Source of the DNA: Gammaproteobacteria bacterium
Lineage (GTDB): Bacteria > Pseudomonadota > Gammaproteobacteria > UWMA-0217
DNA: 34,462 nt
Reading direction: 5' to 3'
Assembly (NCBI GenBank): GCA_026981985.1
Contig: JALSHZ010000005.1
Span: forward strand, 1-34,462
Both the position numbers and the translations under genes were made by a program. Shown one piece after another: positions 32,976-34,462 of this stretch (the stretch's first letter is position 1; every line of letters starts with the position of its first letter). The notes below the pieces were generated by a model. That model did no database searches and was not told where the DNA came from. It saw only the letters and a list, made by a program, of their open reading frames with translations.

Positions 32976-33117
32976 TTCATCACGGTTGAGGTCAGCGCTA
33001 TGCGTAGCAACACGAAGATCACGTCTGACGGCTTCCCCCTTTGTGAAAGGGGGTTTGAGGGGGATTTTAAGGGGCTTGCTGCGAACCCATGGTTGTTCCA
33101 ATCCCCCCCCCTAACCC
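32976..33117. repeat. Truncated, inverted copy of the MITE family
   Basis: The block AGTTCATCACGGTTGAGGTC is nearly the same as that just inside the left end of the 21669 element. It runs on through CCCCCTTTGTGAAAGGGGG to CCATGGTTGTTCCAATCCCC, the reverse complement of the right-hand part of the 23561 copy. The outer CTCAAGTTTCGG and the opposite end are missing. Confidence 0.7.
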
Positions 33118-33607
33118 GAATGGCACTTACCTAAGCGAACAAAGCATTAAAATCAATCAGTTAGCAATGGCTTGGCGATTGTAAAGTTATTGGGTTAGTC
33201 GCAAAGTGCAGCCGCAGAATAGGCAAGACGAGCTAGTGATGCTTCCTTGAGCAGGGCATAGGCACCGAAACACCAACGGAATTCTCAAAATCCGCCAATT
33301 ACCACCGTCAAAAAGTGTGAATTGGTATGAGAAAACCGTCACATGGCTTGGTAAGCTGACCCAGCCCGTCTGTAAGCGACAGCGCATCCCAGTTCAAGCG
33401 TGGATATGCGTCACTATGACATCTATCTACGGCTGATGACGTATATCAACGGCCAGGCGAGATATTGTGATCTGTCGAAATCCGCTGTGGATGTGGGATG
33501 AGGCAGGGTGCGGGCGAAGATGCGGATGTAGGGTTATACGTCCCATTGACGTGTTTAAACACGTCAATGGGACGTCTGCTAACTGTTATATTTAAAAGCG
33601 AGGTGAC
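33118..33607. other. Non-coding stretch before the AT-rich gene
   Basis: I see no credible gene. The only longer frame (33187-33387, minus, 66 residues) lacks any recognisable motif. The 38-bp palindrome listed next is the sole clear structure. Base composition falls toward the AT-rich gene at the right. Confidence 0.5.
33538..33575. repeat. Perfect 38-bp palindrome, 32 bp before the AT-rich gene
   Basis: The left arm ACGTCCCATTGACGTGTTT is followed with no spacer by its exact reverse complement. It ends 32 bp before the start codon at 33608. It could be an operator, a strong hairpin terminator without T-run, or a protein-recognition site. A perfect spacer-free palindrome of this length is very unlikely by chance. 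Confidence 0.85.
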
Positions 33608-34387
33608 ATGGATCAAAATCAAATAAATCAGGTTAAGGCCGTCATTGAAACATATTATTCGTTAGATATCGAAAAACTGATAGCGGATGCATATAAAGAC
33701 CAAAAGGATTTGGCAGCTGTAAAAATTGGAGAGTTCTCTGCAATTGAATTGGTAGAATCTTTAAATAAAGTTTTTGTTCAATTTAAAGAAGAATTAAATA
33801 CTACTTACGCAAAATCACTGCCATTTCAATATAATTTTCAAAATGAATTTGGCAGTGGTAATTTACATTCTGACCTAAATCAAATAATTGAATATATTCA
33901 AGGCAATCAGTTTTCGAATATCCCGCCTTATTTAAACAGAATAATTCATTATCAAGCGATTAACGGATTCTGGGAAAAATCCAAACGAAAATATTTCAGC
34001 CCGAAAGATAGAAGCTTCGCAAAAGAAGCTGAAAGAATAGACATAGTATCAAAGCATTTGGAGTCTTTGCTTGGTGAATCCAGCAATTTCTTTGCGTCAC
34101 TAACGCAAAAAGAAGAAGAGCTGGATAATTTTATAAAGCAAAAGAAATCTCATCTTTCAGAAATTGAATCCCTACTTGTAGCTGCTAGACAACATGCAAG
34201 CGAAATAAATGAGCTTAATTCTAAATCGGCAACATTAACTGAGAAAATATCAGTGCTGTCTGAAACAAGCGCCGAGAAAGAGGAATCTATTAGTGAGTTA
34301 CTAGCGACAATAAATAAGCAGCAATCTGAAAGTAAAAACTCAAGTTTCGGAGTTCACTTTCAGCGCATCCCCCCTATAAGGCATTGA
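33608..34387 (+). pseudogene. AT-rich coiled-coil protein gene, 3' end interrupted by a transposon end
   Basis: The frame encodes 259 residues. The native part runs to about residue 243; the last 15 or so residues (SFGVHFQRIPPIRH) are read from the inserted terminal repeat. I do not recognise the family. The N-terminal half is helical and polar (IETYYSLDIEKLIADAYKDQ); the part from about 150 is a long coiled coil (LTQKEEELDNFIKQKKSHLS onward). No signal peptide or membrane segment is seen. GAGGTG precedes the ATG. Its low GC content contrasts sharply with the rest of the window and points to horizontal acquisition. It may be the first gene of a larger foreign module beyond the window. Confidence 0.7.
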
Positions 34388-34462
34388 AATAGCAACAAAA
34401 AAGGCCTTGCGCGTGATAAAATGTTGATTCTCAAATCCCAACATCAAAATCACGGAAGGCCC
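34339..34462. mobile_element. Left end of an element sharing the MITE terminal repeat, cut by the window edge
   Basis: CTCAAGTTTCGGAGTTCA at 34339-34356 is identical to the left ends of the 21669 and 29075 MITEs, but the sequence inside differs (CAGCGCATCCCCCC and onward). The preceding 7 bp, GTAAAAA, would be the target duplication; the other side is outside the window. Near the edge, AAGGCC with GCGTGAT and ATCACGGAAGGCC form a loose inverted repeat that may precede a transposase gene. It might be the autonomous relative that mobilises the MITEs. Confidence 0.55.

Follow-up and report, generated by a model that had tools for sequence, protein, structure and literature searches.

Features of the Palindrome Locus

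The window, i.e., the whole stretch of 34,462 nucleotides of DNA that was analyzed, has a long palindrome near its end, followed by an AT-rich gene and an end of an insertion sequence. The following features were annotated:

33402..33427, + strand: upstream dyad GGATATGCGTCA-CTA-TGACATCTATC, about 110 bp 5' of the palindrome (from the sequence and the alignment with L009)
33437..33447, + strand: further half-site TGACGTATATC (from the sequence; the alignment has a gap at this place in the C126 copy)
33538..33575, no strand: perfect 38-bp palindrome (from the sequence, an inverted-repeat search, covariation and the count of internal dyads)
33573..33591, + strand: putative attI core CGTCTGCTAACTG^TTATAT, a degenerate inverted L box and then the R box; similarity ends at GTTA
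33586..34337, + strand: putative first gene cassette, broken by an insertion element; AT-rich DNA begins here, and a homologue in G157 is placed alike
33608..34387, + strand: cassette ORF encoding a coiled-coil-like protein; its final codons are supplied by the inserted element
34338..34462, no strand: end of a multi-copy insertion sequence that begins with ACTCAAGTTTCGGAGTTCA, interrupts the cassette and closes the contig

The two arms of the palindrome (33538-33556 and 33557-33575) have a length of 19 nt each, are 100% complementary and have 0 nt between them. Among the perfect inverted repeats within 60 bp, none in the whole window is longer. At 4^-19 per position, a perfect spacer-free 19-bp dyad would arise by chance in 34 kb with a probability of about 1e-7, and the 38-bp palindrome without a spacer that was reported in the first-pass annotation was thus borne out, far above chance. 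The distance of 32 bp to the start codon was also correct, as the ATG is at position 33608. Both arms are dyads in their own right, ACGTC-CCATT-GACGT (33538-33552) and ACGTC-AATGG-GACGT (33561-33575), and the center of the palindrome is GTGTTTAAACAC (33551-33562).

Downstream of the palindrome, the elements of an attI core were found. The cassette boundary carries the G^TT of a GTTRRRY crossover (G33585^TTA, with the RRRY part only partly matched by ATAT), and a degenerate inverted L box is located 9-11 bp 5' of it (CTGCTAACTG^TTA; the family consensus is CTA-N6-8-GTT). The crossover would therefore lie between G33585 and T33586, 10 bp after the palindrome. The product of the cassette ORF had no Pfam family above the cut-off, and the homologous gene in G157 likewise starts about 20 bp past a GTTA core. 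At least 8 further near-identical copies of the insertion sequence are present in the genome. Because it cuts the first cassette, the attC of this cassette lies outside the window. No integrase gene was found upstream of the palindrome among the ORFs of the window, and, thus, the locus was filed as an integrase-free attI-like site and not as a complete integron.

Two side observations concern repeats. A CCCCCTTTGTGAAAGGGGGTTTGAGGGGGATTTT repeat is present at 33032-33066, and similar sequences occur in L009 near 890-1000. In addition, the region 707-1095 of L009 resembles a short non-autonomous element, with terminal repeats as in the insertion sequence of the window (AACTCAAGTTTCGGAGTTCA).

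Copies in the Same Genome and in Other Genomes

A search elsewhere in the genome, which the first-pass annotation had proposed, revealed a second copy of the palindrome at C126:238-273, with one central mismatch and the same surroundings. The upstream dyad GGATATGCGTCACTATGAC is common to both copies, as is, with small differences, CTAACTGTTA on the 3' side, and upstream they are similar over about 260 bp. The alignment showed that the similarity ends soon after GTTA. The upstream dyad at 33402..33427 is thus kept in the C126 copy, and varied counterparts are present in other copies (L022, L109-L112). Like the window copy, the C126 copy has no integrase nearby. The intact intI of this genome is located on contig C36, where only about 43 bp precede the gene before the contig breaks off, so that the attI of the genome's own intI is out of sight. 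As an aside, the contig end coincides with attI or is close to it in L024, L264 and G000:C36, as though the sequenced population carried differing cassettes there.

In a search of relatives, the same palindrome was detected in G002 (same family) and repeatedly in G036 (same class). One of the G036 copies is about 270 bp away from a divergent integron-integrase gene, and downstream of another one are a cassette gene and a sequence that resembles a classical attC. The exact palindrome had no match in viral and genome collections. A degenerate pattern that was run on 84,980 genomes retrieved 26 loci, and about half of them were gammaproteobacterial with the same layout, i.e., palindrome, CTA-type box and G^TTA. 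The pattern was absent from viral contigs and had no match in plasmids. Matches in cyanobacteria, a Clostridia MAG, Mesonia, Cutibacterium and others were discarded as other repeats or chance, the core being absent. Altogether, more than a dozen further gammaproteobacterial genomes carry sites of the same format, often several each. A covariance model added further copies, with several per genome in G036, G213, G018 and G055; G197 (L273) carries a 44-bp palindrome. The outcome that the first-pass annotation had held against the palindrome, orthologous genes without it and no other genomic copies, was thus not found: a second genomic copy exists, and the family recurs before unrelated genes across genomes.

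An intact intI is about 200-270 bp from the palindrome in three genomes (G036:C187, G064:C145, G065:C117), and intI remnants lie beside it in three more (L114-L116), while the remaining copies are without a nearby intI. Between genomes, the homology extends from about -17 to about +43 relative to the palindrome core and ends at GTTA. For the detection of attC sites, a strict home-made finder yielded nothing useful, and a looser version gave TAACAA...CGTTA sites downstream. Its raw call rates for the two sides were similar, with 0.42 versus 0.36 per kb, and therefore only sites of classical form were counted, by eye. Several copies have attC-like sites on their 3' side, and gene cassettes that end in attC were seen after L110, L111, L266, L268 and L273.

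Some copies had further peculiarities. L262 (G055:C82) carries two attI-like units at 1840 and 3263 on one strand, 1.4 kb apart and with nearly the same letters, and a third unit lies at a contig end (L264). Two integrase-free copies of G213, L266 and L267 (C49, C9), have a 5' stub of intI, comprising the first ~39 codons, and a nearly identical intergenic region. They break at nearly one point inside intI (GATCCAGTC) despite unrelated left flanks. The repeated unit of G036 (L023, L024, L025) starts with GTTAGGTTTC, which is G^TTRRRY-like, and ends with G^TTA, and thus has cassette-like ends.

One flank is constant and the other flank is a different cassette in each copy, as in an integron attI. 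As judged from these comparisons, the palindrome therefore forms the upstream half of an attI-like integron site, with the AT-rich gene as the putative first cassette. The alignments place the joining point of the cassettes at G33585^T33586, immediately after the palindrome and the degenerate L box on their 3' side. The palindrome is not a lone operator, although it may be a protein-binding dyad. The first-pass annotation was borne out in part. A mobile-element site that borders acquired DNA was right in kind, as a cassette crossover adjoins the palindrome and the next gene is an acquired cassette, but a replication site, a resolution site or a segment end gained no support.

Survey of Regions Upstream of Integrase Genes

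An integron integrase was present in 137 of 369 gammaproteobacterial genomes. The survey sample comprised 105 regions upstream of intI, 26 of which contained a recognizable attI core, compared to 3.0 expected by chance; the cores were defined without reference to palindromes. A palindrome with a score of at least 9 was found within 52 bp upstream in 10 of the 26 core regions versus 0.08 in dinucleotide shuffles, an enrichment test that is not fully blind because the core motif had been drawn up after some of the surveyed regions had been viewed. For L138, which is among the ten, the score comes from a LexA-like box and not from its attI palindrome. The segment after GTT contained 0 palindromes of score at least 9 in the 26 core regions. 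The surroundings of the palindromes are asymmetric: GTTRR was present on the 3' side of 13 of 24 palindromes with this score, compared to 3 in the mirror control. Long palindromes with unrelated letters sit just before the attI core, e.g., in L143, L181, L222, L172, L123 and L156. Many intI-upstream regions are without a palindrome, and therefore the feature is common, but not universal.

Conservation of Symmetry and Letters

The arms of the TGACG type covary, with 20 changes on both sides versus 9.8 after shuffling and at most 7 when the arms were slid. The first-pass annotation had left open whether the palindrome is new or maintained. As the arms covary and the symmetry survives changes of the letters, the palindrome is maintained. 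Within the arms of 20 palindromes, 80 nested dyads were counted versus a null mean of 45 and a maximum of 57 (200 shuffles), whereby 4 of the 20 share the TGACG letters and thus not all are independent. A third dyad is present about 110-190 bp upstream of the palindrome. In one large gammaproteobacterial integron clade, the sequences show a common site format: upstream dyad, dyad-GTGTTTAAACAC-dyad, CTA, G^TTA.

The letters differ between the sister integrases L024/L143 and L106/L117 of one well-supported integrase clade. A single clade of TGACG letters was ruled out, because the letters are scattered within one integrase clade. Also the two integrons of one host, G055 (L265, L263), differ in their palindrome letters. 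In G036, comparison of the intI-linked copy with the integrase-free ones gave 92-96% identity for the upstream block and for the palindrome with the core, versus ~60% for the DNA between these blocks. The integrase-free copies of G058 have letters unlike those of the resident intI-linked site.

Possible Functions of the Palindrome

The position, symmetry and covariation of the palindrome, the cassette boundary and the copies without intI were established at the level of sequence, and the function has to be deduced from them. Its most probable role is that of an accessory recognition element within attI, which the cognate integrase would bind. The full proposal, to which we assign a probability of roughly 0.55, is that it is the upstream arm of an attI-like site distant from intI, with accessory sites read in trans by the cognate IntI, and that the integrase-free copies are extra landing sites. 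On double-stranded attI, the palindrome would offer a group of accessory sites for binding. Its repeated half-sites would concentrate the integrase at attI and help it to tell its own attI from others. The integrase-free copies, apparently additional landing sites that are still in use, would be served by an intI elsewhere, in the genome of the window by that on C36. Reading of the letters in trans is suggested because the G036 blocks have been kept while the intervening DNA diverged. The letter differences between sister integrases fit co-evolution, but they fit equally well if symmetry mattered without a reader of the letters. The mismatch of letters in G058, the many regions without a palindrome and the cut-off attI of the genome's own intI were counted against the accessory sites.

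IntI already recognizes folded attC hairpins by their structure, and the symmetry itself might be what matters, so that a cruciform or a folded single strand beside the L box would be a structural landmark for IntI. This is a serious rival, because the symmetry outlasts the letters: these turn over fast with changes on both sides. Moreover, the AT-rich center (TTTAAA, TTATAA) would aid melting. However, the letters were kept among the copies of one genome (G036) though the neighboring DNA had diverged, and attI is treated in published work as double-stranded and read by sequence (PMC4792948), so that we regard recognition by structure as unlikely. The repeated half-sites in the palindrome and the upstream dyad, the excess of nested dyads and the location between divergent promoters would also be expected of an operator, at which a separate dimeric regulator acts on the integrase or the cassette promoter. 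Such a regulator is rather unlikely; one that acts host-wide is disfavored because the two G055 integrases have different letters. In addition, no sigma-70-like promoter was found near the palindrome within the window. LexA boxes are separate and near intI, which also ruled out that the palindrome is a LexA box.

The nearly coincident breakpoints of the two G213 copies inside intI and the identical start of three G036 copies at GTTAGGTTTC could mean that the attI unit itself moves like a cassette, as a segment whose ends are defined, and that the palindrome is part of its mobility. This is quite improbable, as the left ends vary from genome to genome and the fourth G036 copy also has a different one, and most cases are explained by ordinary duplication and decay outside the functional blocks. 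A perfect stem ahead of cassette genes could also form an RNA hairpin in the cassette transcript, i.e., a terminator, an insulator or an mRNA stabilizer. This explanation is hardly credible and was rejected: there is no U-tract, no terminator call and no Rfam match, and the mismatches have no clear excess of sense G.U pairs (28 sense versus 21 antisense).

Taken together, accessory sites for the cognate IntI are the preferred explanation. A generalization can be offered only tentatively, and we consider it doubtful as a whole: a conserved palindromic module, with letters that turn over and fixed symmetry and place, would be the mark of the own attI in many chromosomal integrons, several integrase-free copies would be kept as cassette landing sites served in trans, and an integron would be a network of dispersed sites instead of one locus.

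Comparison with Known Systems

The literature presents attI as double-stranded and recognized by sequence; DR sites are described mainly for attI1, whereas other attI sites are poorly described (PMC8191803, PMC8946536, PMC9024848, PMC4792948). Beyond class 1, attI sites are said to be poorly described and to escape standard software (PMC9024848), and it is stated to be open how an integrase tells its own attI from others (PMC4792948). The title of Hansson 1997, as cited in PMC12901181, terms attI sites "non-palindromic". No relevant description of palindromic or multiple attI sites was found in the openly accessible literature, and a recurring palindrome as a regular attI feature provisionally appears to be new. 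Together with the core it makes attI findable by sequence, it is a concrete candidate for cognate recognition, and it brings to light attI-like sites without an integrase at the head of cassette arrays.

Similar to attC, the palindrome occurs in integrons and has a G^TT crossover at its 3' end. However, only attC has a 5' AAC that pairs with GTT, extrahelical bases and imperfect arms, and here the crossover is outside of the stem. An attC identity was rejected, as the palindrome does not have the RYYYAAC/GTTRRRY form and no AAC box is present 5' of it in the aligned copies. The locus resembles a CALIN in that cassettes occur without an adjoining integrase gene, but here a conserved attI-like site heads the array, which is outside the CALIN definition. 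The count of attC sites for a CALIN (at least 2 attC without intI) is cut off, because the contig ends within the first cassette.

In a cyanobacterial attI upstream of intI (L283, Kovacikia minuta plasmid pB), two direct repeats TTTGGGATCTTAGGCTGAA were seen instead of a palindrome. The closest parallel is attI1 of class 1 integrons, which has accessory IntI-binding repeats (PMC8191803; PMC8946536) and shares the G^TTA crossover, the CTAA-type L box ~10 bp before it and the divergent intI. The accessory sites of attI1 are described as the direct repeats DR1/DR2, and attI1 has no long perfect palindrome and lies beside intI, in contrast to the site described here. Nevertheless, GGGC-AGTC-GCCC adjoins the CTAAAACAAAG^TTA core of attI1 (seen in L284), and accessory binding of the palindrome by IntI would parallel the accessory sites of attI1.
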